A stretch of DNA of 42,934 bases from Frankiaceae bacterium (GTDB taxonomy: Bacteria > Actinomycetota > Actinomycetes > JAFAQI01), in NCBI GenBank assembly GCA_025929365.1, contig JAICMG010000007.1, positions 1-42,934 on the forward strand, written 5' to 3'. A model generated the notes under the pieces. It was not told where the DNA came from. It worked only from the letters and a program-made list of their open reading frames with translations, and did no database searches. This document shows, piece after piece, positions 17,187-38,901 of the stretch. The translations under genes and the position numbers were made by a program. Positions within the stretch are counted from its first letter, which is position 1. Every line of letters begins with the position of its first letter.

Positions 17187-18272
17187 GTGATCAAGTACCT
17201 GGGCTCGAAGCGGACGCTCGTCCCCGTCCTCGGCGCCATGGCGCGCGCAGTCGATGCGCGTACAGCGCTCGACCTTTTCGCCGGGACGACCCGCGTCGCC
17301 CAGGCGCTCAAGCGCTGCGGCATCGAGGTCACGGCGGTCGACATCGCCACGTACACCGAGGTGCTGGCCCGCTGCTTCGTTGCCACTGATGCCCGACGCG
17401 TCGACGAGGTCGCTCTCCGCACCGCGCTCACCGAGCTGTCGGGGCTGCCCGGCGAGCGCGGCTATTTCACCCGGACGTTCTGCGAGCAGGCACGCTTCTT
17501 CCAACCGAAGAACGGGATGCGGATCGACGCCGTCCGCACGGCGATCGACGAACGTTTCGCGGACTCGCCACTGCACCCGATCCTGCTGACGGCGTTGATG
17601 CTCGCGGCGGACCGGGTCGACTCGACCACGGGCGTGCAGATGGCCTACCTCAAGCAGTGGGCTCCGCGTTCGCACCACGAGCTCGAGCTGCGGGTCCCCG
17701 ACCTGTTGCCGGGACCGGGCCACGTCTTGCGCGGAGACGCGCTCGAACTACTGCCAGAGCTGCCGGCGTCGGATCTCGCGTACGTCGACCCGCCGTACAA
17801 CCAGCACCGCTACTTCACGAACTACCACGTCTGGGAGACCTTGGTTCGCTGGGACGCTCCGGAGCACTACGGCGTCGCGTGCAAGCGGCTCGACAGCCGC
17901 GCTGCCGAGACCAAGAGCGTGTTCAACCGCAGACGCGAGATGCCGGACGCGCTGCGAAGGGTGCTGACCGGGGTGCGCGCCGACGTGGTGGTCGTGTCCT
18001 ACAACGACGAGGCGTGGGTCACGCCGGACGAGATCGCCGACTGGCTGCGCGCCGCCGGCCACGACGACGTCCGCCTGCTCGGCTTCGACAGCAAGCGGTA
18101 CGTCGGTGCGCAGATCGGCATTCACGACCCGAGCGGCCGCAAGGTCGGCAAGGTCTCGCATCTGCGCAACACCGAGTACCTCGTCGTTGCGGGCTCGCAC
18201 GACCGGGTCGATGCCGCCATCGCTGCCGCCGCGGAGCTTCGGCCCGCCACTACGTGTGGTGCTTGTGCCTGA
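17187..18272 (+). CDS. D12-class adenine-specific DNA methyltransferase (orphan)
   Basis: MIKYLGSKRTLVPVLGAMA, ALDLFAGTTRVAQALKRCG, DPPY motif in LAYVDPPYNQHRYFTNYHVWETL. Confidence 0.9.
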   Translation: MIKYLGSKRTLVPVLGAMARAVDARTALDLFAGTTRVAQALKRCGIEVTAVDIATYTEVLARCFVATDARRVDEVALRTALTELSGLPGERGYFTRTFCEQARFFQPKNGMRIDAVRTAIDERFADSPLHPILLTALMLAADRVDSTTGVQMAYLKQWAPRSHHELELRVPDLLPGPGHVLRGDALELLPELPASDLAYVDPPYNQHRYFTNYHVWETLVRWDAPEHYGVACKRLDSRAAETKSVFNRRREMPDALRRVLTGVRADVVVVSYNDEAWVTPDEIADWLRAAGHDDVRLLGFDSKRYVGAQIGIHDPSGRKVGKVSHLRNTEYLVVAGSHDRVDAAIAAAAELRPATTCGACA

Positions 18273-19567: not shown

Positions 19568-20068
19568 ATGGATGCAGCCGGACTGCGCGAGGCGCAGCAA
19601 CCGCTGAAAGACCGATACCGGCAGGACCCCGGCGCCGCGGCGGTGACACTGCGGGCGTCGGGCTCACTCGACGATGGCGACGTCACCTGCTCAGTGCAGA
19701 CCGGTCAGGCGCTGGTCGCTGCCGGCCTGCACCCCGCGACCGGAGGCGACGGCACCCTTGCCTGTTCCGGAGACATGCTGCTCCAGGCGCTCGTCGCTTG
19801 CGCGGGCGTCACGCTGCGGGCGGTCGCCACGGCCCGCGGCATCGAGGTCGACGGGACCGTGCTCGCCGAGGGCGACCTCGACTTCCGCGGCACCCTCGGC
19901 GTCGACCGGGAGGCACCGGTCGGCTTCCGCGAGGTGCGGCTGTCCTTCGACCTTGAGTCGTCGGCGCCGAAGGAGGACCTCGACGCCCTCATCGACACGA
20001 CGCGGCGTTACTGCGTCGTCTACCAGACGCTGGCCAAGCCGCCCGAGCTGTCGATCAGTTGGGCCTGA
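19568..20068 (+). CDS. OsmC family protein
   Basis: SGDMLLQALVACAGVTLRAVATARGIEVDG ... RRYCVVYQTLAKPPEL. Confidence 0.9.
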   Translation: MDAAGLREAQQPLKDRYRQDPGAAAVTLRASGSLDDGDVTCSVQTGQALVAAGLHPATGGDGTLACSGDMLLQALVACAGVTLRAVATARGIEVDGTVLAEGDLDFRGTLGVDREAPVGFREVRLSFDLESSAPKEDLDALIDTTRRYCVVYQTLAKPPELSISWA

Positions 20069-22598
20069 CCGCAGGCACTGTGATGCCCTTGGCGCCGAAC
20101 GGCGTCACGAGCGCCGCCGTGATCGGCAACAGGTAGTCGCGCGCTGCCGCGTTGCCGACATTTCCGGTGTTGGGCGGCAGGATGAGCTGGTTGTCGGCGG
20201 CGTCCACCTCGTCGACGGGCGTCGTCGCGTCGGCGTTGTCGCTCTCGACCAGGAACAGCATGTGCTGCCCATGAGTCGCCACATCACCCTGCAGGTAGCG
20301 CACGTCGCCTTGCGGGCTGAAGTTCGGGTCCGGGGCGGGGTCCGATGCTTGTGCGCCCTTCGACGGGTCGAACGTCGCGGTCTCCGGAATGTTGTACGGC
20401 GTGCCGTCCGGGTTGTGGTTCCAGCAGCGCCGCTGGTAGGTGTGATCACCGCGGTAGGTGCGACCGCCATCGTGGACCCGCCCACGGAAGCGGTCCGCTG
20501 CGGCTGGCGCCGGGGTCTGCGCGACAGGCTTGCCGTCGATGTCGGCGAACCCCCACGTCGTCGGCTCGTCGGCGCTTCGCAGCTCGACATGCGGCCCTGG
20601 GTTGGTTCCGGTGCCGTCGTCGAAGCACGAGTCGTCGACGTAGTACGGCTGCGCCACCACGGTGGCCTGCGCGTCGCCGGGGGACAGCGGCTGGTTCTGC
20701 GAGATTCCCCATTTCTCGACCATCGTCCCGGCCGGTCCGGTCATCTCCTCCCACGACAGGACCGAGGGTGCGACGCCCGAGTAGGTCACGTCGGGGACGT
20801 TGAACGAGTCGTAGATGCACGCGTCGGACGAGCACTTCGAGTTGTTCGGGTTGCCTACGGTGAGCGGCTTGCCGCCGGTCAGCTTGCTCTCGAGCCGGCC
20901 GACCTGGTCGTTGCTCGACTCGGAGATGCCGTCGGGACCGATGTGGGCGTTGGTGTCGCCGTACAGCACCGGGTTGATGCCGTCGACCGGCACGCCGCCC
21001 GGGTTGTAAGGGTTGTAGTAGCGGGTGATGCGCCCCGCGGCCATGTCCCACTGTGAGTAGATGCCGTCCAGCGGCGGGATCGGGTGCACTCGGACGCCGA
21101 AGTCGTGGACGATCGTGTAGGCGTAGAAGATGTCGGTGCGCGTGACGTTGGTCCCGGAGTCCGATCCCCACGTGACGCGGATGTCGCGTACCGGACCGCG
21201 CTTGATCCCCATCGTGATCGACGAGCCGCCCCAGTTGTTCTGCTCATCCTCGTAGCCACAGCAGGGCGTGTTGCCGCCGGGGGACTGCTGGAAGGCGCGC
21301 GCCTTGAAGCGGTCCACGATGCTCGGCCCGTAGTCGCCGCGGGACAAGCCGCGGTCGTCCTTCGACACTTGCAGGTCGTCCATCACCCAGCGGCCGTCGA
21401 AGCGGAAGCGGTAGCGCGGGGTGGTGACGGTGGCGTTGTCGACGGTCCGCCGCTGCACGTACGTCTTCGGATCGAGCACGACGTCGTGGTGGGTGTTGTA
21501 GCGGAAGCCCTGTCCGATGACAGCCTGACCGTCCGGTGTGCAGACCGGCCCGTACCGGGCGTTGCCGTAGGAGTCATACGAGCTCTGCGAGTAGACCAGT
21601 GTGTTGGCGTCGGCGTCGGGCGTGTAGCGAACGTACGGCGAGTTGGCCGCGGTGTAGCGCGGCGTCACCGCCCAACCGCCCTTGCCCTTGGGTGCGGACT
21701 CCATGACATACGCGTAGCGGGTGGCGCCAGTCGTCGGGTCGACGACTGCCACCTGGTTCGCGGACACGATGCCGCGCGGGAGCGCGGCCGACAGGGGTGC
21801 CGCCGGACCCGCGTCGCGCGCCATGAACGCGAGCTGGTCGCTGTTGATCAGACCGGTGTTGGGGTCGGGGGTGGGATCGGCGACACCGACGGGCGCCCTG
21901 GCGTCACAGACGATGCCTGCGCGCTGCAGCTGGTGCGGCCCGGGCGGGATGCAGCCCGGCGTGACCGCACCCTTGCCGGCCTTGCAGTCGGCGGGCAGCG
22001 GTCGGTTGCTGTACTCCAGGAACGGCTGGTGGTCGAACGTGTAGGTGAGGAACTGGTCGGTCCCCGAGTAGAACGAGAAGCCAGAGGCGTTGTTCGAGAT
22101 GTAGTGGTTCCACATCGTGTCGACCTGGAACGGGATCTGCACGAAGCGCTTGCCGTTCCACGCGTAGCCCCGAAGGCTCGCGGTTGCGACGCCGTGCAGG
22201 ACCGTGCGAACCGGCAGCTGACTCGGCTGGAAGCAGTTGTGGTCGTTGTGGAACCGGTCGACGTAGCCGTTGACGTCCGGTTTCGGGCTCGACTGGTAGC
22301 AGGAGCTCTGAAGCGGCTTCGGCACGTACTGCTGGGTGTTCTCCACGCCGTAGTAGTTGGGCGGCTGCGGCACCCGGGCGGTCACCTCCGGCCCGCCCGA
22401 CCAGCCCGGGAAGTCCGCCCCGCTCAGCACGACCGGCTGGGTCGCAAACTCGGAGACGTCGACCTTCACGGCTGCGGCGTGTGGCTGCACGTGGGCCGCG
22501 TGATGGGTCGCGCGCAGCGGAACGACGAACGCGACCAGACCGACCACGACCGCTGCGAGCTTGGACGGGGCGGCCGTGGTCGATGAAGTGGATCGCAC
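20055..22598 (-). CDS. Large secreted protein of unknown function (847 aa)
   Basis: N-terminal hydrophobic segment KLAAVVVGLVAFVVPL, continuous high-quality reading frame, several Cys; no domain recognised. Confidence 0.75.
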   Translation of the reverse strand: MRSTSSTTAAPSKLAAVVVGLVAFVVPLRATHHAAHVQPHAAAVKVDVSEFATQPVVLSGADFPGWSGGPEVTARVPQPPNYYGVENTQQYVPKPLQSSCYQSSPKPDVNGYVDRFHNDHNCFQPSQLPVRTVLHGVATASLRGYAWNGKRFVQIPFQVDTMWNHYISNNASGFSFYSGTDQFLTYTFDHQPFLEYSNRPLPADCKAGKGAVTPGCIPPGPHQLQRAGIVCDARAPVGVADPTPDPNTGLINSDQLAFMARDAGPAAPLSAALPRGIVSANQVAVVDPTTGATRYAYVMESAPKGKGGWAVTPRYTAANSPYVRYTPDADANTLVYSQSSYDSYGNARYGPVCTPDGQAVIGQGFRYNTHHDVVLDPKTYVQRRTVDNATVTTPRYRFRFDGRWVMDDLQVSKDDRGLSRGDYGPSIVDRFKARAFQQSPGGNTPCCGYEDEQNNWGGSSITMGIKRGPVRDIRVTWGSDSGTNVTRTDIFYAYTIVHDFGVRVHPIPPLDGIYSQWDMAAGRITRYYNPYNPGGVPVDGINPVLYGDTNAHIGPDGISESSNDQVGRLESKLTGGKPLTVGNPNNSKCSSDACIYDSFNVPDVTYSGVAPSVLSWEEMTGPAGTMVEKWGISQNQPLSPGDAQATVVAQPYYVDDSCFDDGTGTNPGPHVELRSADEPTTWGFADIDGKPVAQTPAPAAADRFRGRVHDGGRTYRGDHTYQRRCWNHNPDGTPYNIPETATFDPSKGAQASDPAPDPNFSPQGDVRYLQGDVATHGQHMLFLVESDNADATTPVDEVDAADNQLILPPNTGNVGNAAARDYLLPITAALVTPFGAKGITVPAVRPN

Positions 22599-22632
22599 AC
22601 CTTGGGATTCGCCGTGGACGATCCCCGCTCCT

Positions 22633-23532
22633 TCACCCGCGCCGGACTGCCCGCCAGCCGATCAGGATGAGAAGAGCGGCCACGATGGCTCCGCCGGCGA
22701 TGATGACGTCCTTCGTGGCGCCGTCCGGATCCGCCAGCGATGACGCCTCGGTGTGCGTGGGGCTCGCGGCCGGCGCCGAGGCCGAGGGGGAGTGCGAGGG
22801 GGAGGTGGTGCCGGGCGGTGGCACGGTGCCGTGAGTGGGCCGGGTCTGACGGGTCGGCGGGTGGGTCGTCCGTCCGGGACGTGAGCTGGTCGCGCCCCCA
22901 CCCGGATTGGGGTGATGCGACGGCGTGGGGGGGTGCTGGGTCGACGGCGCCGCGGTCGGGCTCGGAGGCGCGTCGACCGTGATGTCGGCGGCGGTCGGCG
23001 CCGCAAAGGACACGGAGAACGTCGGCGACTGCCCGGCCGTCGGACTACCGCCCGGAACCAGCACGATGCCCTTCGCGGCCTCGGCGGCCGGGAACGTGAT
23101 CGTCATCGTCGTCAGGGCGGCATCGAACTGCCCGCGCGCCGGCTTCGCTCGCGCCCGGTACGACGGTCGCGCCGACCACGGCTGCGGCCCGCCGGTGGTC
23201 CAGTGACTCGTCGCGGGGTAGCCGAGGACGCCGGGTTTTCGGACCTGCTCCTGTTTCGACACGTGCAGTGTCAGCCGCACCACACCGCTGGGGTTCGCCA
23301 TCGTGAAGCGGACCGCGGACTCCGCTTGCGGACCGTTGGGAGCCGACGCGACGTACAGTCCGTTGGACGGGACGCCCGGCACCGGGATCAGCCCGGTGAC
23401 CGGCTCGGGCTGCCACCAGTAGGCGCCCTCGGGGGTGCCGGCGCTTGACGCCGCGGCCATGCTTACGTCGCCGAGCGCGAGGCAGGCGGCGACGCCCGTA
23501 AGGGCGGCGCCCCACCTTCGCGCCCGGGTCAC
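22633..23532 (-). CDS. Surface protein: signal peptide, beta-rich domain, Pro/Thr/Ser stalk, C-terminal TM anchor
   Basis: Stalk PSPTAAPSTQHPPTPSHHPNPGG...; TM DVIIAGGAIVAALLILIGWRAVRRG; GTGA overlap with upstream gene. Confidence 0.8.
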   Translation of the reverse strand: MTRARRWGAALTGVAACLALGDVSMAAASSAGTPEGAYWWQPEPVTGLIPVPGVPSNGLYVASAPNGPQAESAVRFTMANPSGVVRLTLHVSKQEQVRKPGVLGYPATSHWTTGGPQPWSARPSYRARAKPARGQFDAALTTMTITFPAAEAAKGIVLVPGGSPTAGQSPTFSVSFAAPTAADITVDAPPSPTAAPSTQHPPTPSHHPNPGGGATSSRPGRTTHPPTRQTRPTHGTVPPPGTTSPSHSPSASAPAASPTHTEASSLADPDGATKDVIIAGGAIVAALLILIGWRAVRRG

Positions 23533-25181
23533 CCGACCAGTTTTCCACCCACCTTCGCGGTTTTCCTTGCTCCGCTTGGCGCATCCGGCTCCGGCGCTCG
23601 GTCGCCGCCGAGCCTGACGAGCAGGAGCGCGACGTCATCTCGCCGCCGGTTGGGCCCCATCCCGTCGATCAGCCGGTTGCAGAGCTCGTCGGCGGTGGCC
23701 CGCGGCGCGACCGCCGCAATCGTTCGCTTCAGCTGGTCGATGAGGTCGGTGAGGGACTCGCCCGGGGTCTCGATCAGGCCGTCGGTGTAGAGCAGCAGTG
23801 TCGAGGCGGTAGGGATCGTCATGGCGCGCTGCGAGCGTTGCTCGGAGCCGACGTCGGCCGCGCCGAGCAGCAGCGAGCTTGCTTCAGCGAGTTCGGCGAC
23901 CGTCCCGTCCTCGCGATGCAGCAGCGGCGGCGGATGACCGGCATTGGCGAAGACGAGCTCACGCGAACCGTCGACATCGAGTGGGCCCAGCACGCCATAG
24001 AACACCGTGACCAGCCGATCGGTGTGCAGCGATGCCATCAACCGGTCCAGCCGATCCAGGACCGCGCCGGGTTGCTCGCCGACGAATGCGTAAGCGCGCA
24101 GTGCGGTCTGCACGCGCGACATCAACGCCGCTGCGGCGATGTCGTGACCCAGCACGTCGCCGACGGCGATGCCAACCCGGTCGCCGTCGAGCTCGAACAC
24201 GTCGTACCAGTCGCCACCCACTTGTTGTCCGCGCGAGCCCGGCAGGTAGCGCGCGGCAAGCGCCAGGCCGTCAACGGCGGGCAGCTCCGGCAGCAGGTTG
24301 CGCTGCAGCGTCTCCGCCACGCGCTGCTCGTTGCGGTACAGCGCGAGTGCGCTGCGCCGGCGGCGGGTCTCGATCTCGACGATCAGCGCCAGCAAGATCG
24401 ACAGCACCACGCCGCCGCCGAGCGCGAACCACTCGGCGTTCGCGGTGGCGCTCCCGACGAGCGGGTGTGCCGCGCTGACCTGCAGCGCCCACCGAGCGGC
24501 GCCTGCCGCGATCGTGACGACGCGGACGTGACCGCGCAGCGGGATGGCGTCGGTCGTCGTGACCAGGGCCTGCGACGCCACCGGGGTCGGCGTGCCGTAG
24601 AGCACGACGTGCAGCTCGTTGAAGGGCGAGGATCGGGCGGCACGGGGCGGACCGAGCGTGCCGAGACCCACCTGCACGTACAAGACCGTGCCGGCCGGGG
24701 ACTTGGGCGGACCGAGGGCGAAGCCGAGGGCGCGGGTCGCTCCGCTGCCCATGACCTGGGTCGGCACCATCTGATCATTCGCGTCGGCTCGCGACAGCGA
24801 CGCCACGACAGAGCCGGACAGGACCTGCCCGGGATGAAGCGCCGTGCCGTTGGCCAGCCTGACTCGATACCCCGCCGCCGTCCGGCGCAGCAGCGCGATC
24901 GAGTCCTTGCCCTTGGAGCCCGCGACGAGCGCCGCGCTCGCCCGTTTGAACGCGAGCGGTGAGCCGTTCGTGGCCTCCACCACACCGCCGACGGTTTGCA
25001 GCTGGCTCGAAAACGAGTCAACGGCTTCTTTGAGGACGAGGCCGACCTCGTTGGCCCGTTCGTTCAGGAGCCGGTTCTCCTGGCCGCGAACGGTCCCGCG
25101 CACCGTCCACATGGTGAAACCGGTCACCGCGAGCAGGAGCACAAGTGTGGCAGCGGAGAGCCACCCCCACTTGCGCCTCAT
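23529..25181 (-). CDS. Membrane sensor SpoIIE/PP2C-family serine phosphatase
   Basis: Two N-terminal TM segments around an extracytoplasmic region; QRNLLPELPAVDGLALAARYLPGSRGQQVGGDWYDVFELDGDRVGIAVGDVLGHDIAAAALMS; LLLYTDGLIETPGE. Confidence 0.93.
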   Translation of the reverse strand: MRRKWGWLSAATLVLLLAVTGFTMWTVRGTVRGQENRLLNERANEVGLVLKEAVDSFSSQLQTVGGVVEATNGSPLAFKRASAALVAGSKGKDSIALLRRTAAGYRVRLANGTALHPGQVLSGSVVASLSRADANDQMVPTQVMGSGATRALGFALGPPKSPAGTVLYVQVGLGTLGPPRAARSSPFNELHVVLYGTPTPVASQALVTTTDAIPLRGHVRVVTIAAGAARWALQVSAAHPLVGSATANAEWFALGGGVVLSILLALIVEIETRRRRSALALYRNEQRVAETLQRNLLPELPAVDGLALAARYLPGSRGQQVGGDWYDVFELDGDRVGIAVGDVLGHDIAAAALMSRVQTALRAYAFVGEQPGAVLDRLDRLMASLHTDRLVTVFYGVLGPLDVDGSRELVFANAGHPPPLLHREDGTVAELAEASSLLLGAADVGSEQRSQRAMTIPTASTLLLYTDGLIETPGESLTDLIDQLKRTIAAVAPRATADELCNRLIDGMGPNRRRDDVALLLVRLGGDRAPEPDAPSGARKTAKVGGKLVG

Positions 25182-25182
25182 G

Positions 25183-26214
25183 TCACTCCCCCGTGCGCTC
25201 GGCGTAGCGGTAGTACACCTCATCCCGGGTGCCTTGCGCACTGACCCTGTCGAGTTCCTCGGCGAGAACGAGGGAGAACGTCGTGATGGGCGGCGGCGGG
25301 TCGCCGCGGCTCGCCGCGCGCAGCCGCTCGACCAGGGCGCGGACGTACCACTCGCGGAAGACCCGGTGGGACGGCGCCGCGGCGACGGTCAAAAGCCGGG
25401 CGGCTCGCGCCTGCCGGTCGGCTTCGTCCAGTGCGGCGAGGTAGCGCAGACCGGCGGTTGCTGCGGAGACCGGGAGATGCAAGGTCAAGTCGGTGAAGAC
25501 GGCGCCGCGGCGAGCCGCATCAAGGGCTTGGCGTTTGATCTCGTTGCGCGCCTCGGAGAACTCTTCGGTCACGCGCGCGAGCAGCACGATCGTCTCCGAC
25601 GGCAGCCGCTCGGCGTCGTCCGAGGGCGCCTGCATGAGAGCCAGCTCGCGCACGATGTTGTCGATGTGCGCCTTGGCGGCAACCAGAAGATCGGTCGGCA
25701 CCCACCCGAGCTCGATCTCGTACCGCGGCGCCGGATCTGTGCTGATGACGTTGGAGTTAAAGGAATCCGGGTTGTTGCGTGCGTGCCGGCGCAGACTGCG
25801 GCGACGAGGTCTTCCGAGCTCTGCCCACACCAGCTTTCCGTCTTCGGCCGGCTCGATGCCCCACGCGCTGGTGAGCGACTCGACAACGGCGAGACCACGA
25901 CCGGTCATGTTCTCGAGGTTTTTCTGCGCGCGTACCGGCATCGCGAGCCCTGCGTCGACCACTTCGATGCGTACGCGGTCGCGACGGCCACGCACCCGAA
26001 GCGAGATCGGCGGCCGGCCGTGCAGCACGGCGTTCGTCACGAGCTCTGTCGCGACGAGCTCGGCGTCGGATGCCAAGCCGTCGGGCAACGCACGCAGGGT
26101 CGCCGACGTGAGACGCCGAGCAGCCCTCACCCCATCGAGCCCTGGGTTCACCAGGAGCTCGGCCCCTTTTGCCACCGGCTCCGCCCGTCCTGTCAGTAAC
26201 TCCCGCCATTGCAT
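25183..26214 (-). CDS. GHKL ATPase (RsbW-like) with an additional about 190-aa C-terminal region
   Basis: ELVATELVTNAVLHG N-box, VEVVDAG, TGRGLAVVESL G-box; C-terminal alpha-rich region unassigned. Confidence 0.87.
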   Translation of the reverse strand: MQWRELLTGRAEPVAKGAELLVNPGLDGVRAARRLTSATLRALPDGLASDAELVATELVTNAVLHGRPPISLRVRGRRDRVRIEVVDAGLAMPVRAQKNLENMTGRGLAVVESLTSAWGIEPAEDGKLVWAELGRPRRRSLRRHARNNPDSFNSNVISTDPAPRYEIELGWVPTDLLVAAKAHIDNIVRELALMQAPSDDAERLPSETIVLLARVTEEFSEARNEIKRQALDAARRGAVFTDLTLHLPVSAATAGLRYLAALDEADRQARAARLLTVAAAPSHRVFREWYVRALVERLRAASRGDPPPPITTFSLVLAEELDRVSAQGTRDEVYYRYAERTGE

Positions 26215-26283
26215 GCCCGCTGCGACCGCTCGCTAAGCGCCCGCTCGGCCGGATCTAAACCACCCGTACGGAGTAACGCCGGG

Positions 26284-28512
26284 TCAGCCGAAGCTGTGCC
26301 AGGTCACCGATCGGCTCGCCCCGACGCTCGGCCGCGAGTAGTCGCACACACCGCTCGGGAAGATCGCGTTCAGCTGCTCCCACTGCGTGGCCGAGAAAGT
26401 CGCGGCGTACGCCGACTTCGTGACCCTCCTGAGCCGGCACTTCATGACGTTGTCCTGCAGCGGCCCGCCCGCGGCGATGCGCGGGTCCGTGCCATGCGCG
26501 AACATCCTGCGGCACTGGTCCCACGAAAGGATGTGCAGACCGGCCAGCCAGCACTGGTCGCCGGCTGTGGCCGGGCGATCCGCGGCGACCTCGGCGGCGA
26601 GCGTGCGGCCGGTGCGGTCGGATTCGACGTTCGCCAGCCAGTCGTCGAGCTGGTTGAAGGCCTGCGCCGTCACGGTCGGGTCCTGGGCGTCCTCGCCGAG
26701 CTCGAACCACAGCGCCTGGTTCCGGTGGCCACCCGTCGCGGCCTTGAGTCGCGCCCGCTCCACGTAGCTGTCGATGTCGAGGTGGATCTCCTCGTTGTCG
26801 TGTCCGCGCAGGTCGATGATCGGCACAGCGGCTTGCGCGTGCGGGTCGAGGATCTGGCCGGTTCGGTAGCCGACGGACAGTGCACCCGGGTCCGCGACGC
26901 TGCGGGCGCCCGTGTGGTTCCAGTCGATGCTCAGGCCGCCTACCTCGCGGTTGAGGGAGAGGAACTCCGCGACGGAGATCTGGTGTCTGTTGAGGGCCGC
27001 CAGTCCGTACTGCACGCCGACGTTGTCGAACGGCCGGTTTGCGAAGCCCGCCCCCGCGCTTCGCTCGGCCGCGGTCCACACCGACCGCGGCCGGTGGCCC
27101 CAGATCGCGACCTGATAGTCCTGCAGCGTGCACCGGACTCCGCCCGGGTTGGTGGAGGGGTCGTAGACCCACGCCGGGTCCTGCTGGCTCGTGCATGAAG
27201 CGGCGCGCCCCGGGTCGAGCAGCGACTGCGCGTAGTCGGGCACCTTCGTGCTGACGCTGCCCTGGGCGCCGTCGAAGAAGCCGCGGCAGGTCGTCGGCTC
27301 GAGGAAGCCGGTGACCGCGTCCTGCTTCGTGGTCGACCACGTGCCCGAGTGGGCGTCGAAGACACGGTCGAGGAGGTGGCAGTCCTCGGCCTGCTGCACG
27401 ACCTGCCAGATGTCCGGGAAGCTGCACATCAGCAGTGCCCCGTCGACGAGTCCGGGGTAGTTCGACGTCATCGCGTTCAGGATGATCGAGCCACCGGAGC
27501 AGCCCTCGCCGATCGTGTAGCGGATCACGCCGTACTCGTCGACGAGGCGCGACTTGATCATGGCGAGGGCCTCAGCCGCGACGACGGGGTTGCAGTTGTT
27601 GCCGAGCACGTCGAGTGCGCCGGTCACCACCGCGAACCCACGTCCCAGCGCATGCGCGTCGAACACGGACAGGCCCTTGGCCTGGTCGTGCCACGGCCGG
27701 CAGTCACCGCCGATCTCGACGTCGACCTTGTGATTCCACGCGACCGGCGAGGACCACGGCGTATACGCCTGTCCCGGTGTGGCGAGCACACCGATCTGGT
27801 AGGTGTCGCGGTCGATGATGCCGGTCTCGACGCGGATGATGTACGGCACTCGCACGCCCTCGTCAGTGGTGGTGTGCGCGACCGAGTCCGGCGACGGCGG
27901 ATCCTGGGGGTTGTAGGACACGAACTGGTCGGAGCTTGGCGGTGCCCCGACACTCGGATGGTTGCCGACGCCGGCGGAGCTGGCCGGGAGGTAGTAGTAC
28001 GCGTAGTGGGTCGGCACCCGACAGCTCGGGCGGTTCGTCGCCGACGGCTTGTCGATGCAGAACCACGGCATCACGCGCGGCCCCGCGAACATCGGCCCGC
28101 TGTCGTCGTAGTCAGTGATGTGCGCCTCGCTGGTGCGGCCGCTCGGCAACGTGGCGCGCAGGGTGTGCGTGCCCGGGGTCAGCCGTACGAGCCCCACGAG
28201 TGCGTGCGACGAGGGGGACAAGCCGATGTGCTGCGGAACGCGTACGCCGTGCAGGAGCGCGGGCAGCCGGCCGCGGGCCAGCTGGGAGGTGACGTCACGC
28301 ACCCCGTCGGCCACCCGAACCGTGCCGAGGTCCGCGGCCGTCGGCACCACAACCGCGACGAGCGCCTCAGGTCCGGAGACCCACGCGGGTTTGCCCGACA
28401 GCACCAGGACCCGCAGGTTCCCGCCGGCCGCCGCGGCCGCCCGGAACGGCATCGCGGCAGGACCGACCACCGCGACCACCGCGACGACCAGCGCAAGGGC
28501 CCGAGTGCGCAC
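26284..28512 (-). CDS. DUF6351-like secreted alpha/beta-hydrolase-type protein
   Basis: Signal peptide RALALVVAVVAVVGPAAMPFRAAAAAG; nucleophile-like YTIGEGCSGGSIILNAM; CTLQDYQVAIWG; GTG start at 28512. Confidence 0.75.
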   Translation of the reverse strand: MRTRALALVVAVVAVVGPAAMPFRAAAAAGGNLRVLVLSGKPAWVSGPEALVAVVVPTAADLGTVRVADGVRDVTSQLARGRLPALLHGVRVPQHIGLSPSSHALVGLVRLTPGTHTLRATLPSGRTSEAHITDYDDSGPMFAGPRVMPWFCIDKPSATNRPSCRVPTHYAYYYLPASSAGVGNHPSVGAPPSSDQFVSYNPQDPPSPDSVAHTTTDEGVRVPYIIRVETGIIDRDTYQIGVLATPGQAYTPWSSPVAWNHKVDVEIGGDCRPWHDQAKGLSVFDAHALGRGFAVVTGALDVLGNNCNPVVAAEALAMIKSRLVDEYGVIRYTIGEGCSGGSIILNAMTSNYPGLVDGALLMCSFPDIWQVVQQAEDCHLLDRVFDAHSGTWSTTKQDAVTGFLEPTTCRGFFDGAQGSVSTKVPDYAQSLLDPGRAASCTSQQDPAWVYDPSTNPGGVRCTLQDYQVAIWGHRPRSVWTAAERSAGAGFANRPFDNVGVQYGLAALNRHQISVAEFLSLNREVGGLSIDWNHTGARSVADPGALSVGYRTGQILDPHAQAAVPIIDLRGHDNEEIHLDIDSYVERARLKAATGGHRNQALWFELGEDAQDPTVTAQAFNQLDDWLANVESDRTGRTLAAEVAADRPATAGDQCWLAGLHILSWDQCRRMFAHGTDPRIAAGGPLQDNVMKCRLRRVTKSAYAATFSATQWEQLNAIFPSGVCDYSRPSVGASRSVTWHSFG

Positions 28513-28544
28513 CCGGATCAGTTCGCCATGCCCGAGGTGCCTTC

Positions 28545-29027
28545 CTATATGTCGATCGCGCAGGGCTGGTCGACGCCGAGCACGGCGAGCGTCCGCCCGA
28601 GGCCGAGGAACACCGCCACGCACAAGGTGAGGTCCAGGATCTCCTCATCGGTGAACGCCGCGCGCAGCCGCACGAAGAACCCGTCGTCCAGCGAGGAGTG
28701 ATCGGTGGCGAACCGATCGGCGTACTCGATCGCCAGCCGCTGCCGGTCGGTGTAGCCGGGATACGTCGCGTAGTCGGCGACGTGGTCGTAGAGCTCGGCC
28801 GCAACACCGGCCTCGAGGACGGAGGGTGCGCGGAAGCCCGAGCACGCGACGCAGTCGTTGATCTGCGCGATGCGCATCCGAGCAAGCTCGCGCTCGTCAG
28901 GAGGCAGCACGCTCTGCGTGTAGGCACCCTTGATCATCCGCTCGACCATGCCGCCGAGCGGCGGCCGCAGCGTCCAGATCATCGCTGCCTCACCGCCGGG
29001 TCCGGCGGGCACATCGAGTCGAGCCAC
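28545..29027 (-). CDS. Carboxymuconolactone decarboxylase (AhpD-like) family protein
   Basis: MRIAQINDCVACSGFRAPSVLEAG (CxxC-like) ... RLAIEYADRFATD...FTDEEILDLTLCVAVFLGLGR. Confidence 0.85.
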   Translation of the reverse strand: MARLDVPAGPGGEAAMIWTLRPPLGGMVERMIKGAYTQSVLPPDERELARMRIAQINDCVACSGFRAPSVLEAGVAAELYDHVADYATYPGYTDRQRLAIEYADRFATDHSSLDDGFFVRLRAAFTDEEILDLTLCVAVFLGLGRTLAVLGVDQPCAIDI

Positions 29028-29881: not shown

Positions 29882-30697
29882 ATGACCCAGCGCCGGTTCG
29901 ATGGCGCGGCGCTGCTCGCGTCGGCCGGGACGGGGTTCAGCGCGGCCGGCGACTTGTACGTCCTGGCGGGCGACACCCTGCTCGCAAGCGTGCGCAGCGT
30001 CGCGCGACGGCGCTTTCCGTGGCGCGAGGCGATCAGCCAGGCGTGGTTCATCGCGAGCGTCTGCATCCTCCCCGCCATCCTCGTCGCGATCCCGTTCGGG
30101 GTGCTCGTGGCCGTCGAGGTCGGCTCGATCGCGCACCAGATCGGCGCCGACTCCTACACCGGGGCCGTGGATGCGCTGACGATCGTGCGAGAAGCCGCGC
30201 CGCTCGTCACGGCGCTGATGATCGCGGGCGTCGGCGGATCGGCGATCTGTGCGGACCTTGGCGCACGCAAGATCCGTGACGAGATCGACGCACTCGAGGT
30301 CATGGGAATCTCGCCCCTCGAGCGGCTGGTCGCACCGCGCCTCGCGGCGGCCGTTCTCGTGACGCTTCTCCTCAACGGCATCGTGCTGTTCGTCGGGGTG
30401 ACCGGTGGCTACCTCTACGAGGTGTGGGTCGGGCACGGTACGCCGGGCAGTTTCCTGCGCACGTTCACCGAGTTCACCCAGTTCAGCGATCTCGTCGTCG
30501 GTGAGATCAAGGCGGCCGTCTTCGGGGTGATCGCAGCGCTAGTCGCGGGCTACAAGGGGCTGTCCGTGAAGGGTGGCCCGAAAGGCGTCGGCGACGCCGT
30601 CAACCAGTCGGTCGTGATCAGCTTCCTGCTCGTGTTCGTCGCGAACACGGTGATCTCGCAGATCTACCTGATCCTCGTCCCGCCCCACGGCCCGTGA
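29882..30697 (+). CDS. yrbEA: MlaE/YrbE family ABC transporter permease (YrbE A position)
   Basis: GSAICADLGARKIRDEIDALEVMGISPLERLVAPR; followed by yrbEB and mce genes. Confidence 0.95.
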   Translation: MTQRRFDGAALLASAGTGFSAAGDLYVLAGDTLLASVRSVARRRFPWREAISQAWFIASVCILPAILVAIPFGVLVAVEVGSIAHQIGADSYTGAVDALTIVREAAPLVTALMIAGVGGSAICADLGARKIRDEIDALEVMGISPLERLVAPRLAAAVLVTLLLNGIVLFVGVTGGYLYEVWVGHGTPGSFLRTFTEFTQFSDLVVGEIKAAVFGVIAALVAGYKGLSVKGGPKGVGDAVNQSVVISFLLVFVANTVISQIYLILVPPHGP

Positions 30698-31560
30698 GCA
30701 ACCGCGCGGCACCACTGGCCCCGCCGCGACCCGTAAGGGTCGCGATGCGGGCCAGCGAACGCGTGGTCGATGCGCTGGCCGAGCTGGGCGAGCAGCTCAG
30801 CTTCTACGCCCGAGCGATGCTGTGGCTGCCACGTGCGGCGAAGCGCTACTGGCGGGAGGTGGCGAGGCTGGTCGCGGACATCAGCTTCGGGTCAGGCGCG
30901 TTGCTCGTGGGTGGCGGGACGGTCGCGGTGATCTTCGCGCTGTCGTTCTTCTCGGGGAGTGAGCTGGGCCTGCAGGGATTCAAAGGCCTGCAGATCATCG
31001 GGCTCGCTCCGCTGTCCGGCGTGATCTCTGCATACGCCAACACCCGCGAGATCGCCCCGATCGTCGCCGGCGTCGGCCTCGCCGCGCAGGTCGGCTGCGG
31101 ATTCACCGCTCAGCTCGGCGCGATGCGCATCGCCGAGGAGATCGACGCGCTCGAGGTCATGGCGATCCCCTCTGTCCCGTACCTCGTGTCGACACGGATC
31201 CTCGCCGCGTTCACGGCCGTCGTGCCGCTCTACCTCGTCGGGCTCTTCGCGTCGTACGTCGCGACCGAGGTCGAGGTCGTCTACCTCAACCATCAGTCCA
31301 AGGGGACGTACCTCTACTACTTCCACCGCTTCCTGCCGCCGCGGGAGCTGCTCTACTCGCTCGTCAAGGTGGTCGCCTTCGCGGTGATCGTGACGCTGGT
31401 TCACTGCTACCACGGCTACACCGCGTCCGGTGGGCCGGAGGGCGTCGGGCGCGCCGCGGGACGCGCGCTACGCACAAGCATCGTCGCGATCGTCATCTTC
31501 GACCTTGTGCTGACCTTCGTGCTGTACGGCGCGAACCCGTCCGTGCGGATCTCCGGATGA
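30694..31560 (+). CDS. yrbEB: MlaE/YrbE family ABC transporter permease (YrbE B position)
   Basis: GFTAQLGAMRIAEEIDALEVMAIPSVPYLVSTR; 4-bp overlap with previous gene. Confidence 0.95.
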   Translation: MSNRAAPLAPPRPVRVAMRASERVVDALAELGEQLSFYARAMLWLPRAAKRYWREVARLVADISFGSGALLVGGGTVAVIFALSFFSGSELGLQGFKGLQIIGLAPLSGVISAYANTREIAPIVAGVGLAAQVGCGFTAQLGAMRIAEEIDALEVMAIPSVPYLVSTRILAAFTAVVPLYLVGLFASYVATEVEVVYLNHQSKGTYLYYFHRFLPPRELLYSLVKVVAFAVIVTLVHCYHGYTASGGPEGVGRAAGRALRTSIVAIVIFDLVLTFVLYGANPSVRISG

Positions 31561-32666
31561 GGCGGCTCCGTGCTGCCCTGGCGGGGCTGCTCTTCGTCGT
31601 GCTCGTGGCGGGAGCATCGGTAGTCGGTGTCGCGTACGGGTTCGGCGCGTTCTCGTCCTCGAAGGTCGTCACGGCGACGATTCCCGAGGCCGGCCCGGCG
31701 CTGGGGCCCGGTGCGGAGGTCGAGTTCCGCGGAGTGCTCGTCGGCTCGCTCGGCAGTGTCCGTCGCAGCCTGCGCGATGCCGTGCTGACCCTGAAGATCC
31801 AGCCGTCGCAGCTGTCGCGGATCCCGGCCGGCGTGACGGTGCGCCTCGTGCCGCGCAGCGTGTTCGGGGACCTGTACGTCGACCTCGTCCCGCCGCCGGA
31901 GACCACGGGGCCACTGCAACCCGACGCCCACCTCGTCGCAGACACCTCGACGCCCACGGTCGAGCTGGACCAGGCACTCGACGCCGGGTACCGGCTGCTG
32001 ACCGCCGTGCGGCCCAGCGAGCTCAGCACGACGCTGACCGCGCTGGCTACTGCCCTCAACGGTCGTGGCGCGAAGCTCGGTCGGCTGGTCGACCAGCTCG
32101 AGCACTACACAACCGAGCTCGAGCCGCACACCCAGCAGTTCCTGCACGACATCGCGACGGTCGGCACGGTTGCGGAGGAGCTGTCGAGCGATGCTCCCGA
32201 CCTGCTTCGCACGCTGCGCAACGCGGTTGCCGCCGCGGAGTCGGTCGCCGAGAACCAGCCGAACATCTCGAAGGTGCTGGCGCAGGGCCCTCCGCTGGCG
32301 GCGCGGACACAGCGCCTCCTGGCCGTCAACCAGGCAAAGCTCGACAGGCTCTTCACACTGCTGCGGCCGGTTGCCCGAGTGCTGCGCAGCCATCGTTCGA
32401 ACCTCGTAGAGGGGGTCAAGCAGCTTCGCGCCTTCCTGCTCGGTGCGGCGGCCGCGCTCGGTCACGGGCCGTGGCTGCAGGTCACGGTCGCACCCGACGT
32501 CGCACCCCAGGACAGCCGGACCTATACCGCAGCCGACTGTCCCCGCTACGCGGGAACACCGGGCAAGAACTGTCCGAAAGGGGCGAGCGCCGCGAGCGGC
32601 GTGAGCTGGACGAAGTGGTTCTTCGAACCGCTCATCGCGGCGGTCTCGCTGCTGGTGGACCCATGA
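31557..32666 (+). CDS. mceA: MCE family protein (A position)
   Basis: N-terminal TM then MCE domain PGAEVEFRGVLVGSLGSVRRS; ATGA overlap. Confidence 0.92.
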   Translation: MRRLRAALAGLLFVVLVAGASVVGVAYGFGAFSSSKVVTATIPEAGPALGPGAEVEFRGVLVGSLGSVRRSLRDAVLTLKIQPSQLSRIPAGVTVRLVPRSVFGDLYVDLVPPPETTGPLQPDAHLVADTSTPTVELDQALDAGYRLLTAVRPSELSTTLTALATALNGRGAKLGRLVDQLEHYTTELEPHTQQFLHDIATVGTVAEELSSDAPDLLRTLRNAVAAAESVAENQPNISKVLAQGPPLAARTQRLLAVNQAKLDRLFTLLRPVARVLRSHRSNLVEGVKQLRAFLLGAAAALGHGPWLQVTVAPDVAPQDSRTYTAADCPRYAGTPGKNCPKGASAASGVSWTKWFFEPLIAAVSLLVDP

Positions 32667-33685
32667 GCATCCGGCCGGCCGCGATCAAGCTGGCGATGTT
32701 CGTCGTCGTCTCCCTTGCCCTGACACTGGTCGTCACGAACACGGTGACCAGGCCGCTGGGCAAGTCGACGTACACCTACCGCGCGCTGTTCATCGATGCC
32801 TCCGGCCTTCGCCCCGGCGACGACGTCGACATCGCGGGTGTGCGGGTCGGCAAGGTCACGGGGGAGCGGCTCTCGGGCAACGACGCCCTGGTCACCTTCG
32901 TCGTCGACCGCTCGCAGCGGTTCACGACGGGCGCGGTGGCGGCGATCCGGTACGAGGACCTGCTCGGCGCACGGTTCCTGGCGATCGAGCAGACCCACCC
33001 GACGGCGACCACCATGGCGCCGGGTGCGACGTTCGGCCCCGACCGCACCCGTCCGGCGTTGTCCCTCACGGTGCTCTTCAACGGCTTCAAGCCGCTCTTC
33101 GACGCGCTGTCTCCCGCCCAGGCGAACCGGCTGGCCGCCGATGTTGTTGCCGACTTCCAGGGAACCGGCGGCGCGGTCACCGCGCTGCTCGACAACATCG
33201 CGCAGCTGACCGGCAACCTCAGCAAGCGCGATGCCCTGATCTCCCAGGTCGTGGACAACCTCGACGTCGTGCTCCGCGGCGTCGCCGACCACAACGGTGA
33301 CCTCGCCGCATTGATCAGCCGGCTCGGCGCGCTGACGCACGGCCTGTCGATGGACCGTCACCGAATCGCCGGTGCGTTGTCCGGCGTCGATGCGGTTGCG
33401 GCATCGCTGTCCGACCTGCTGGGCAAGGGCGAGCCGCTGCTTCATCACGACATCGCCGACCTGTTCCTCGTTGCCGGCACGCTGGTAGGCAACGAGGGAA
33501 GGCTCGCGGCCGCGGTGAAGGCGTTGCCCGGTGGCGCGGCCGCGTTCACCCGCAGTCTCGGCTACGGCACCTGGCTCAACGGCTACGTCTGCGCGGATGC
33601 GATCCAGACCGGCGCGCTGGTCGTCCCGATCGTCGTCAACGGCAAGACCTGGCATTCCGCCGTCTGCCGAACGGGGCAGCGATGA
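32663..33685 (+). CDS. mceB: MCE family protein (B position)
   Basis: DASGLRPGDDVDIAGVRVGKVTGERL MCE motif; ATGA overlap. Confidence 0.93.
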   Translation: MSIRPAAIKLAMFVVVSLALTLVVTNTVTRPLGKSTYTYRALFIDASGLRPGDDVDIAGVRVGKVTGERLSGNDALVTFVVDRSQRFTTGAVAAIRYEDLLGARFLAIEQTHPTATTMAPGATFGPDRTRPALSLTVLFNGFKPLFDALSPAQANRLAADVVADFQGTGGAVTALLDNIAQLTGNLSKRDALISQVVDNLDVVLRGVADHNGDLAALISRLGALTHGLSMDRHRIAGALSGVDAVAASLSDLLGKGEPLLHHDIADLFLVAGTLVGNEGRLAAAVKALPGGAAAFTRSLGYGTWLNGYVCADAIQTGALVVPIVVNGKTWHSAVCRTGQR

Positions 33686-34668
33686 GGAGAGAGCGAAGCT
33701 CGCGATTCATCGGCCTGGTCGGGACGGCTGCGCTCATCGCCGCTGTTGCCGGGGTCATCCTGCTGCCGCGGGCGTCGTTCCTCTCGTCGAACCGGTCGTA
33801 CTCCGCGAACTTCGCCCAGGCGGCCGGGCTGTCCAGTGGGGACGACGTGCGGGTCGCCGGCATTCCCGAGGGGAGCGTCACCGGCGTCCATCTCGACCGC
33901 GACCTGATCCGGGTCGACTTCACGCTGCCGAAGAGTGTGCGGCTCGGCGCGGCCACCACCGCCTCGATCGAGGTGGCAACCCTGCTCGGCACCAAGTACG
34001 TCGAGCTCGCCCCGGCCGGGCCAGGGTCGCTGTCGACCTCCTCACCGATCCCGCTGTCGCGGACCCGTGTCCCGTTCGACCTCGCCGACGTCACCAACGG
34101 GTTGTCCCACACGGTCGGCGGCCTCGACATCCCGACCTTGCGGAGGGCGCTGCGGACGGTCAGCAACACCTTTGCCCACACGCCGAGCGCCACTCGTCGA
34201 CTGCTCCGCGGGGTGGCCGGGATCTCGAGGGTGATCGGGACGCGGCACTCCCAGCTGCAGGAGCTGATCGTCAGCACGCGTGACGTCACGGCCACCCTTG
34301 TGGCGCAGCGTCACAGCCTCGATGCACTCTTCACCGATGCCGACGAGGTGCTCGCTACGTTGCACGCGAGGCGCGTCATCATCCGCTCGATCCTTCAGGA
34401 CGCGAGCCGGCTGGGCAGCCAGCTGGACCGTCTCATCACGCACAACAAGGCCACCCTCGGGCCGCTGCTGGACCGGCTGCATGTCGTCACGACGCTGCTG
34501 CACCACGACGACCACGTGCTCGCCCGTGCGATCGAGCTGCTCGCTCCCGCAAGCCGCGGCCTCACCGATGCCACCGGCGACGGCCCATACATCGACATCA
34601 ACCTGCCCTACCTGTTCGTCCCCGACAACGTCCTCTGCGGCTTCTCGATCGCAACGGAATGCCGATGA
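33682..34668 (+). CDS. mceC: MCE family protein (C position)
   Basis: AAGLSSGDDVRVAGIPEGSVTGVHLDRDLIRVDFTL; ATGA overlap. Confidence 0.93.
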   Translation: MRRERSSRFIGLVGTAALIAAVAGVILLPRASFLSSNRSYSANFAQAAGLSSGDDVRVAGIPEGSVTGVHLDRDLIRVDFTLPKSVRLGAATTASIEVATLLGTKYVELAPAGPGSLSTSSPIPLSRTRVPFDLADVTNGLSHTVGGLDIPTLRRALRTVSNTFAHTPSATRRLLRGVAGISRVIGTRHSQLQELIVSTRDVTATLVAQRHSLDALFTDADEVLATLHARRVIIRSILQDASRLGSQLDRLITHNKATLGPLLDRLHVVTTLLHHDDHVLARAIELLAPASRGLTDATGDGPYIDINLPYLFVPDNVLCGFSIATECR

Positions 34669-35729
34669 CCCGCCGGCACGGAGCGGCGACAGCCGCGATC
34701 GCGATGGCAGCGGCGGTAGCTGTGATCGTGGCGTTCGCCGCCGTAGACGTGTTCCGGGGCGGTAAGCGGATGCACATCACGGCGTACTTCACCGAGAGCA
34801 ACGGCATCTACGCCGGAAACCACGTCGACATCCTCGGCTTGCCGGTCGGCACCGTCTCGTCGGTCACGCCTGAGCCGCATCGCGTCAAGGTGGTGCTGAG
34901 CCTTCCGGCGAGCACGAAGGTCCCGCTCGGCGCGCAGGCGTTCATCGTCCCGCCATCGGTGATCAGCGACCGCTACGTCGGGCTGAGCCCGGCATGGGAC
35001 GGCAGCGGCCCGACGATGCCGGACGGCTATGTCCTGCCGACCACGCGCACCCACGAACCGGCTGAGTTCGACCAGCTGGTCGGCTCGCTGACCACACTGT
35101 TCAACGCGCTCGGCCCGCATCAGGCCGGCGCGAAGGGCGCGGTCGGACGTTTGATCTCGGTGCTGTCGGCCAACTTGGCCGGTAACGGTGCGAAGCTGCG
35201 CCGCAGCATCGTCGGGCTGTCCAACGCGACGGGTGCGCTGACCGCGGATGGCGGCGCGTTTGCCGACCTGGTCAGGAACCTCGACGCCCTGAGCAGCAAC
35301 CTCGCGGAGCGGACCGGGCGCATCGGCTCTTTCGAGTCAGACCTCGCCGCGGCGTCCGGGGAGCTGGCCCACGAGCGAGGCGACATCACCGCGGCGGTCG
35401 ACAACCTGTCGACCGGACTGATCGCGTTGGCGTCGTTCATCCGGTCGCACCGCGCGGCACTGCACGGCGACGTGCATGACCTCGCGGTGACGACGAGCGT
35501 GCTGTTGGCGCACCAGCGCGCGCTGATCGAGACCCTGGACAACCTCCCGCTCGGCGCCCAGAACCTTGCCCGCGTCGGCAAGAACGGGGCGATCATCGTC
35601 AAGCACGCCGACATCGGCCAGAACCAAGCGTTCAACGCGATCGCGAGACAGATCTGCCAGATGCTCGGCCCGGTGTGCTCCGCGACAGCGGGAGACGCGC
35701 TCGACCGCCTCTTCGGAGTCGGGCCATGA
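34665..35729 (+). CDS. mceD: MCE family protein (D position)
   Basis: ESNGIYAGNHVDILGLPVGTVSSVTPEPHRVKVVLSL; ATGA overlap at 34665. Confidence 0.93.
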   Translation: MTRRHGAATAAIAMAAAVAVIVAFAAVDVFRGGKRMHITAYFTESNGIYAGNHVDILGLPVGTVSSVTPEPHRVKVVLSLPASTKVPLGAQAFIVPPSVISDRYVGLSPAWDGSGPTMPDGYVLPTTRTHEPAEFDQLVGSLTTLFNALGPHQAGAKGAVGRLISVLSANLAGNGAKLRRSIVGLSNATGALTADGGAFADLVRNLDALSSNLAERTGRIGSFESDLAAASGELAHERGDITAAVDNLSTGLIALASFIRSHRAALHGDVHDLAVTTSVLLAHQRALIETLDNLPLGAQNLARVGKNGAIIVKHADIGQNQAFNAIARQICQMLGPVCSATAGDALDRLFGVGP

Positions 35730-36673
35730 TGCGGGCAGCGCGATTGGCGGCTGGCGCGGCGATCGCCGCAACCACTGTTGCGGCATGCGGCCCCGGCCTG
35801 CAGAGCCTGTCGGTCGGCCGCGGGGTCAGTGGCCCGTCGTATCGGTTGACCGCCGTCTTCGCCGACGCCGCAGGCCTGCCGATCGGGGGCCGGGTCGAGC
35901 TGCACGACGTGACGGTCGGCCGCGTCAGCTCGCTCACGACGCAGGGCTTCCATGCCTACGTCCATATGGTCATCTCGCGGTCCGCGCGGCTGCCGGTCGG
36001 CACCCGCGCCACCCTCGCGCTGACCACACCGCTCGGCGAGGAGTACGTCGACCTGCTCCCGCCCGCAGCGGCGGGAGCAGGCGGTTACCTCGCGGGAGGC
36101 GAGGTGATCGAGGCGACGCACCGATCGCCGGACGTCGAAGACCTGCTGTCCGCGTTCTCGGCGGTGCTCAACGGTGGCGGGATCGGCCAGATCTCGACGA
36201 TCGTGAAGCAGCTCGACCTCGCGCTGCACGGCAGGGCGAGGACCGGGAGGGCGTTGATCGCGCGGCTCAACAACGTGCTCTCGCAGCTCAACGCCCACTC
36301 CGCAGCCATTGATCGAACGCTCGCGCAGGTCGCGGACCTAGCGAGCGAGCTCGCGAAGCAGCACAAGCTGCTGGTACGCGCCCTGACCGCGTTGCGACCG
36401 GGCATCCGCGATCTGCACGCGGACACGGCGGCGTTCACCAACCTGCTCACGAGGCTCTCGACACTGGGGCGGACGGCGACGCAGGTGCTCGGCTCGGTAC
36501 AGGGTGCGTTCCTCGCGGACCTCAGCGATCTCGCACCGACGCTCGACACCCTCGTGTCGCTGCGCGGCCGGCTCGGCTCGACGCTGGTCGGGCTGCGCAA
36601 GTTCGCTTCGCTGCTCGACCGCGCGATCCCGGGCGACTACCTCGACCTCGTCGGAAACATCGTGGTGCCATGA
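35726..36673 (+). CDS. mceE: MCE family lipoprotein (E position)
   Basis: Lipobox AATTVAACGPG; MCE motif AAGLPIGGRVELHDVTVGRVSSL. Confidence 0.92.
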   Translation: MMRAARLAAGAAIAATTVAACGPGLQSLSVGRGVSGPSYRLTAVFADAAGLPIGGRVELHDVTVGRVSSLTTQGFHAYVHMVISRSARLPVGTRATLALTTPLGEEYVDLLPPAAAGAGGYLAGGEVIEATHRSPDVEDLLSAFSAVLNGGGIGQISTIVKQLDLALHGRARTGRALIARLNNVLSQLNAHSAAIDRTLAQVADLASELAKQHKLLVRALTALRPGIRDLHADTAAFTNLLTRLSTLGRTATQVLGSVQGAFLADLSDLAPTLDTLVSLRGRLGSTLVGLRKFASLLDRAIPGDYLDLVGNIVVP

Positions 36674-37839: not shown

Positions 37840-38312
37840 TCGCCGTGATCGCGAGCGGAGTGTTGGTCGCGGATCTGATGGTCGCCGGTGTGCGCGCCCA
37901 CGACCTGGCATCGAGGAACGCTCGCCTCGAGCACGGGTTCTCGTCGTTCGAGCGGGGTGCGCTGCGGGTCGCGCGAAGCTACACCGTCGCGTTCGCGACG
38001 TACACCTACGACGACCTCGACGCCGACTTCGCCGCGACGGAGGCGCACTCGGTCGACCCCTTCCTGTCGCAATACCGCAGCAAGACCGATCTGCTGCGGA
38101 GCACGCTCGTTGCCGCCAAGGCGAGCTCCACCGCGAAGGTCATCAGCGCCGGCCTGGCGTCGATCAGCGCGACGCGAGCGGTGGTCGATCTCTTCCTCGA
38201 CCAGACGATCGTCAACGTCAGAGGCTCACAGCCAGCGGCAACGCAGCGCGTCGAGCTGACGATGGTGCGCCGCAACGGCCGGTGGCTGATCAGCAACGTG
38301 GTCTTGAAGTAG
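37809..38312 (+). CDS. Mce-associated membrane protein (Mas-like)
   Basis: N-terminal TM, SYTVAFATYTYDDLDADFAATEAHSVDPFLSQYRSKTDLLRSTLVAAKASSTAKVISAGLASISATRAVVDLFLDQT, C-terminal RWLISNV; position after mceF. Confidence 0.87.
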   Translation: MGEGLRGRWLIAVIASGVLVADLMVAGVRAHDLASRNARLEHGFSSFERGALRVARSYTVAFATYTYDDLDADFAATEAHSVDPFLSQYRSKTDLLRSTLVAAKASSTAKVISAGLASISATRAVVDLFLDQTIVNVRGSQPAATQRVELTMVRRNGRWLISNVVLK

Positions 38313-38875: not shown

Positions 38876-38901
38876 TGGATTCTCGTCCATGGAGCCCCGG
38901 G

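Follow-up and report, generated by a model that had tools for sequence, protein, structure and literature searches.

A putative partner-switching input arm in a Frankiaceae bacterium, with a membrane SpoIIE-type phosphatase and a GHKL protein carrying an unnamed domain

Partner switching usually brings together a kinase, a phosphatase, a STAS-domain protein and a sigma factor. The RsbU/RsbW/RsbV system of sigma-B and the BldG/RsbW-homologue network share the logic of phosphatase, GHKL kinase and STAS antagonist, and BldG is a shared antagonist that is phosphorylated by several RsbW homologues in Streptomyces coelicolor (PMC8346170). Rv1364c from Mycobacterium tuberculosis (PAS-PPM phosphatase-anti-sigma kinase-STAS) combines a PPM phosphatase and a GHKL kinase as a unit, and SiaA of the SiaABC system from Pseudomonas aeruginosa, a SpoIIE-type phosphatase that spans the membrane twice, takes part in a partner switch with a kinase (PMC7647112). 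Here we describe a locus on a 42,934-nucleotide (nt) stretch of DNA (contig JAICMG010000007.1 of assembly GCA_025929365.1; hereafter the window) from a Frankiaceae bacterium (genome G000), in which a membrane-anchored SpoIIE/PPM phosphatase is encoded directly after a GHKL protein that carries a second domain, here termed GCD. The same GHKL and GCD domains occur in actinobacterial GHKL-GCD-GAF-SpoIIE fusions (about 730-950 amino acids (aa); L103, L108), within which the window GHKL protein branches. We give a probability of about 0.6 to the reading that two genes form the functional core of the locus and act as the input arm of a partner-switching pathway whose STAS protein is encoded in trans, and that the two genes that follow, coding for surface proteins of 299 and 847 aa, are genus-specific cargo. 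The window genome, which was searched family by family, and those of its relatives are fragmented assemblies of an actinobacterial lineage. The features are as follows:

25183..26214, minus strand: GHKL (HATPase_c_2) anti-sigma-kinase-like protein with C-terminal GCD, 343 aa (PF13581, 8.8e-11)
25297..25725, minus strand: GCD domain of the GHKL protein, residues about 164-306, about 140 aa (iterated hidden Markov model)
23529..25181, minus strand: membrane-anchored SpoIIE/PPM phosphatase, 550 aa (PF07228, 1.4e-42)
24429..25100, minus strand: extracytoplasmic sensor domain of the phosphatase, residues about 28-251, also found in histidine kinases
22633..23532, minus strand: 299-aa membrane-anchored surface protein (hydropathy; homologs in G001, G008 and G012)
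20055..22598, minus strand: 847-aa exported protein, of a family without a Pfam or PDB match
26284..28623, minus strand: DUF6351 (tannase-like) protein (PF19878, 3.3e-186), upstream of the GHKL gene

Only 1 nt separates the TGA of the GHKL gene from the ATG of the phosphatase gene, the phosphatase TGA and the GTG of the 299-aa gene overlap as GTGA, and a 34-nt gap lies between the 299-aa and 847-aa genes. These four serial minus-strand genes at 20055-26214 are present with the junctions, topologies and domains given in a preliminary description of the window, to which we add the upstream DUF6351 gene, the second domain of the GHKL protein and a convergent OsmC gene. All four genes are found in the same order in G001, the other genome of the genus compared (identity of 65% for the GHKL protein, 64% for the phosphatase, 53% for the 299-aa and 78% for the 847-aa protein), where the GHKL/phosphatase junction is an ATGA overlap, tighter than in the window, and the last gap is 33 nt; this conservation in G001 shows the four to be real coding sequences.

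The phosphatase belongs to the SpoIIE/PPM (RsbU-type) family (PF07228, 146 bits against a curated cut-off of 25) and retains the metal-coordinating aspartates of the GGD, GDVxGH, TDG and DD motifs (GGDWYD 322, GDVLGH 341, YTDG 465 and RDDVALL 514), in agreement with the residues given for SiaA and Rv1364c (PMC7647112). Its nearest solved structure is that of Rv1364c (3ke6; 9.7e-25). The GHKL protein combines HATPase_c_2 at residues 27-130 with an intact N-box (ELVTNAVLHG), as expected of RsbW/SpoIIAB-type GHKL kinases, and nearly half of it consists of the second domain, GCD. No named anti-sigma kinase equivalog of NCBIfam was reached; its top NCBIfam match, below the cut-off, is the RsbA-type anti-sigma factor (RsbA_anti_sig, 35 bits vs 210), and spIIAB scored 12 bits vs 135.

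Hydropathy bears out the predicted phosphatase topology, with transmembrane (TM) segments at residues 9-27 and 252-270 flanking an extracytoplasmic loop of about 225 residues. The same sensor region precedes HisKA/HATPase domains in L062, L064 and their homologs, including a histidine kinase of the window genome itself, and some of these kinases adjoin response-regulator-like genes. A general exchange of sensors between PPM phosphatases and histidine kinases via a coiled-coil linker has been proposed, and a sensor shared with histidine kinases is what that model expects (PMC12143880). The loop, whether from the phosphatase or from a loop-sharing kinase, had no match to a Pfam sensor family, including those of CHASE/dCACHE type, or in the PDB.

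Full-length homologs of the phosphatase (46-64%) occur in seven relatives (G001, G002, G003, G005, G007, G009 and G011), and the catalytic domains of the phosphatases bearing this sensor group in a single clade, with 97% support in the Shimodaira-Hasegawa-like approximate likelihood ratio test (SH-aLRT). The genes for the phosphatase and a GHKL-GCD protein overlap in G005, and in G003 a GHKL gene and a separate GCD gene follow the phosphatase gene in series. The GHKL proteins of the window and G001 nest inside the clade of soluble GHKL-GCD-GAF-SpoIIE fusions (18-row clade, 100/100; seven-row subclade, 96/92), and the G003 GHKL/GCD pair groups with freestanding GHKL and GCD genes in another clade (100/97 and 100/99); the tree position of the G005 GHKL-GCD partner is not settled. 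Since the phosphatases form one clade and their partners come from at least two, the pairing arose repeatedly, at least twice and from at least two GHKL/GCD lineages. Such repeated pairing of one membrane phosphatase lineage with GHKL/GCD genes of different origins is better evidence of a functional link than conserved gene order. The intact motifs in both enzymes, the coupled junctions kept in G001 and the pairing in G003 and G005 all support a two-gene switch, and the earlier proposal that the GHKL protein and the membrane SpoIIE phosphatase are a partner-switching pair gains support from the recurrence of the pair in other genera of the family and from STAS genes beside homologous GHKL/GCD/SpoIIE loci.

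Those STAS genes point to the likely target. Neither a STAS nor a sigma gene is found in the window, as had already been stated for it, so the arrangement of both in the same locus, common in partner switching and not universal, is absent here. The window genome codes for exactly two STAS proteins, on contigs C22 and C29, and its sigma genes also lie elsewhere, among them a SigF-type (C179) and a WhiG-type sigma. Homologous loci in relatives do have STAS genes beside them: in G005 (L053) one is oriented divergently from the GHKL-GCD/phosphatase pair, and others adjoin GHKL/GCD/SpoIIE loci of another family (L135, L139, L140 and L142). The target of the window pair is therefore likely to be a STAS protein encoded at another locus. 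Of the two in the window genome, the one closer to the G005 STAS protein is the C22 STAS protein (56% over 97 residues), whose gene is followed by a HATPase_c_2 gene in a bldG-like pair and which has a 71% match in Nonomuraea; in arrangement and sequence it presumably resembles Streptomyces BldG and its neighbour, a likeness that we take as a lead. We did not retain as target the SigH-like sigma whose gene precedes that of the phosphatase in three g7 genomes (L055, L056 and L057), as this is a family-wide gene that is unlinked elsewhere and the adjacency is only suggestive.

The GCD domain had no match in profile searches of Pfam (2025), NCBIfam (2026) or the PDB. Its conserved motifs are HxD, REF, LDEAD, LLTL and RWY, and its four strictly invariant columns are P, E, L and W, none of them Ser, Thr or His. 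Searched with a profile built from GCD alone, 17 of 297 Actinomycetota genomes proved to contain the domain. At 18 of 19 sampled loci GCD shares a protein with a GHKL domain or lies no more than about 1.3 kb from one, a proximity expected by chance at ~1% per locus by our own arithmetic (about 12 GHKL matches in 3.3 Mb), and SpoIIE is also present in the fetched stretch at 12 of the 19. GCD may be fused to the GHKL domain, may have a small gene of its own just 3' of the GHKL gene, as in many genomes, and may form part of GHKL-GCD-GAF-SpoIIE fusions; a GHKL-GCD-SpoIIE fusion is carried by plasmid pSCAT of S. cattleyicolor (L151), and the order in L105 is SpoIIE-GHKL-GCD. A soluble three-gene overlapping set in the order GHKL-GCD-phosphatase was also seen in a distant family (L126:2838-4937). 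Two identities for GCD were considered and found unsupported: a divergent STAS domain, to which it shows no detectable similarity, and a second ATPase lobe, on comparison. The coexistence of STAS genes with GCD loci argues that GCD does not replace STAS. We take the domain to be specific to GHKL proteins of this kind, in which it probably determines the choice of partner or the oligomer state. More tentatively, at slightly below even odds in our estimate, it would represent an undescribed domain that regulates actinobacterial GHKL anti-sigma kinases and a fourth component of the kinase/phosphatase/STAS switch that allows kinases to be exchanged between soluble and membrane phosphatases.

The two surface genes raise the alternative, advanced in the preliminary description, that all four genes make up a dedicated module for surface sensing, with the 299-aa and 847-aa proteins supplying or presenting the ligand for the phosphatase loop or being the structure under control. 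Hydropathy agrees with the topology described for the 299-aa protein, with a signal-like N-terminal hydrophobic segment, an N-domain of about 155 aa, an 85-residue stalk (21 P, 14 T, 13 S) and a C-terminal TM anchor (275-293), and the 847-aa protein, called secreted and unassignable, indeed has a single N-terminal hydrophobic segment and no family match. Neither protein belongs to a Pfam or NCBIfam family, alignments of the 847-aa protein and of the 299-aa N-domain gave no meaningful PDB profile match, the 847-aa alignment found no relatives among viral contigs, and AlphaFold2 with two sequences gave no usable model of the 847-aa protein (predicted local distance difference test (pLDDT) of 25). 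The 847-aa family (alignment A1; 16 members, about 100 invariant columns) occurs in 14 of 60 relatives, and its sole named relative is from a Centralia metagenome-assembled genome. One homolog (L081:10004-12673) has a C-terminal TM segment and an Arg-rich tail, both absent from the window protein. Relatives of the 299-aa protein adjoin genes that by eye are ABC-transporter-like and glucosidase-like, and its N-domain is found at the start of a secreted protein of 931 aa that weakly matches alpha/beta-hydrolases (L059:1621-4416).

A shared strand, overlaps or short gaps and the same order in G001 speak for such a module, and the 299-aa protein might serve as a tether for the 847-aa protein, whose L081 homolog has an anchor of its own. 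Against this, the synteny between the window and G001 extends to the flanks (mce-type genes, a polyketide-cyclase-like gene, DUF6351 and a NAGPA gene in matching order, with a convergent gene in G001 at the place of the window OsmC gene), and therefore gene-order conservation there says little about function and is largely ordinary synteny. Outside the genus neither surface gene adjoins GHKL or SpoIIE, whether among the examined copies of the 847-aa gene, including the 59%-identical L081 homolog, or in G008 and G012 for the 299-aa gene; no fusion joining either protein to the GHKL protein or the phosphatase was found, and the phosphatase sensor is the same in G002, G003 and G005, where no 299-aa homolog was found. 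Only in the window genome and G001, the two congeners compared, do these genes lie with the GHKL/phosphatase pair, and in ten other genomes of the family the four genes are never together, so that the surface genes are a genus-level addition beside the signalling pair. The module as first proposed, for which lack of co-occurrence in related genomes had been named as the decisive observation, thus fails outside the genus, and we regard it as unlikely.

A STAS-free switch, with GCD as the phosphoacceptor of its own GHKL domain and the membrane phosphatase reversing the transfer, would fit the missing STAS gene at the window locus, the small separate GCD genes just 3' of GHKL genes and L105, where GCD is C-terminal to phosphatase and kinase, the position of STAS in Rv1364c (PMC12143880); it is made very improbable by the STAS genes that coexist with GHKL, GCD and SpoIIE at L053, L135, L139, L140 and L142, by the undetectable similarity to STAS and by invariant columns that lack Ser, Thr and His. 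We also strongly doubt that the GHKL-GCD gene is what decay has left of a GHKL-GCD-GAF-SpoIIE fusion paralogue, next to a membrane phosphatase that acts on its own. Its place inside the fusion clade (18-row clade, nested starred forks) and the long GHKL-GCD-SpoIIE fusion paralogues kept at other sites in G000 and G001 might suggest this, but against it stand an intact reading frame 65% conserved between two species, an intact N-box, a conserved coupled junction and the presence of the same pairing in G003 and G005, where the G003 GHKL gene comes from a different lineage.

Under the two-gene reading, a ligand or envelope state would be sensed by the extracytoplasmic loop of the phosphatase, and sensing would alter dimerisation of the cytoplasmic PPM domain via the helix after the second TM segment. 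The co-translated GHKL-GCD kinase, with GCD setting partner choice or oligomer state, would phosphorylate a STAS antagonist and the phosphatase would remove that phosphate; the dephosphorylated antagonist, for which the C22 STAS protein is the best candidate, could then free a sigma factor such as the SigF-type (C179) from its anti-sigma factor. The 299-aa and 847-aa proteins, and possibly DUF6351, would be genus-specific cargo of the same transcription unit.

Several points weigh against this reading. The G1 box of the GHKL protein is degenerate (VVDAGLAM), making kinase activity uncertain, the window lacks a STAS or sigma gene, and the C22 STAS protein was chosen by similarity alone. Furthermore, in G002 and the g7 genomes the phosphatase has no neighbouring GHKL gene, and AlphaFold2 with one sequence gave no usable model of the phosphatase (pLDDT 37).

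The DUF6351 gene ends 69 nt before the GHKL start, has a counterpart (67% identity) at the equivalent position in G001 and is possibly the first gene of the same transcription unit. At the other end, the 847-aa gene lies tail-to-tail with the plus-strand OsmC gene. A scan of 19900-29000, weak for high-GC Actinobacteria, found neither promoter-like sites nor minus-strand terminator-like sites. Elsewhere in the window, a plus-strand mce-type operon (29882-38312; YrbE-like and Mce-like proteins by eye), the first genes of which are conserved in G001, adjoins the cassette; a D12-class adenine-specific DNA methyltransferase (PF02086, 1e-31) is encoded at 17187-18272 (plus strand), and one protein combining alpha/beta-hydrolase and short-chain dehydrogenase domains at 38875-40665 (plus strand).

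The surface proteins are of low general interest. Of wider interest is the extra domain that recurs on the kinase across Actinomycetota, unnamed in the libraries searched, and both its role and the matching of kinase and phosphatase become testable with small soluble proteins. On sequence grounds the locus would represent a form of partner switching that senses at the membrane, has its STAS protein encoded in trans and includes an unnamed domain on the kinase, and it differs from each of the closest systems. Rv1364c is one soluble chain with a PAS sensor and its own STAS domain, whereas the window has separate genes, a membrane sensor, a GHKL protein with GCD in place of STAS, and STAS encoded elsewhere. 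In SiaABC, SiaA has a HAMP domain, its target, SiaC, is itself a member of the named set, and the diguanylate cyclase SiaD is in the pathway; the window sensor, in contrast, matches no solved structure. Compared with RsbU/RsbW/RsbV and the BldG network, the window phosphatase is membrane-anchored with an extracytoplasmic sensor, the STAS and sigma genes are unlinked and GCD is extra. Finally, the GHKL-GCD-GAF-SpoIIE fusions are single soluble chains with GAF sensors, whereas in the window the GHKL-GCD half is separate and stands beside a membrane phosphatase.

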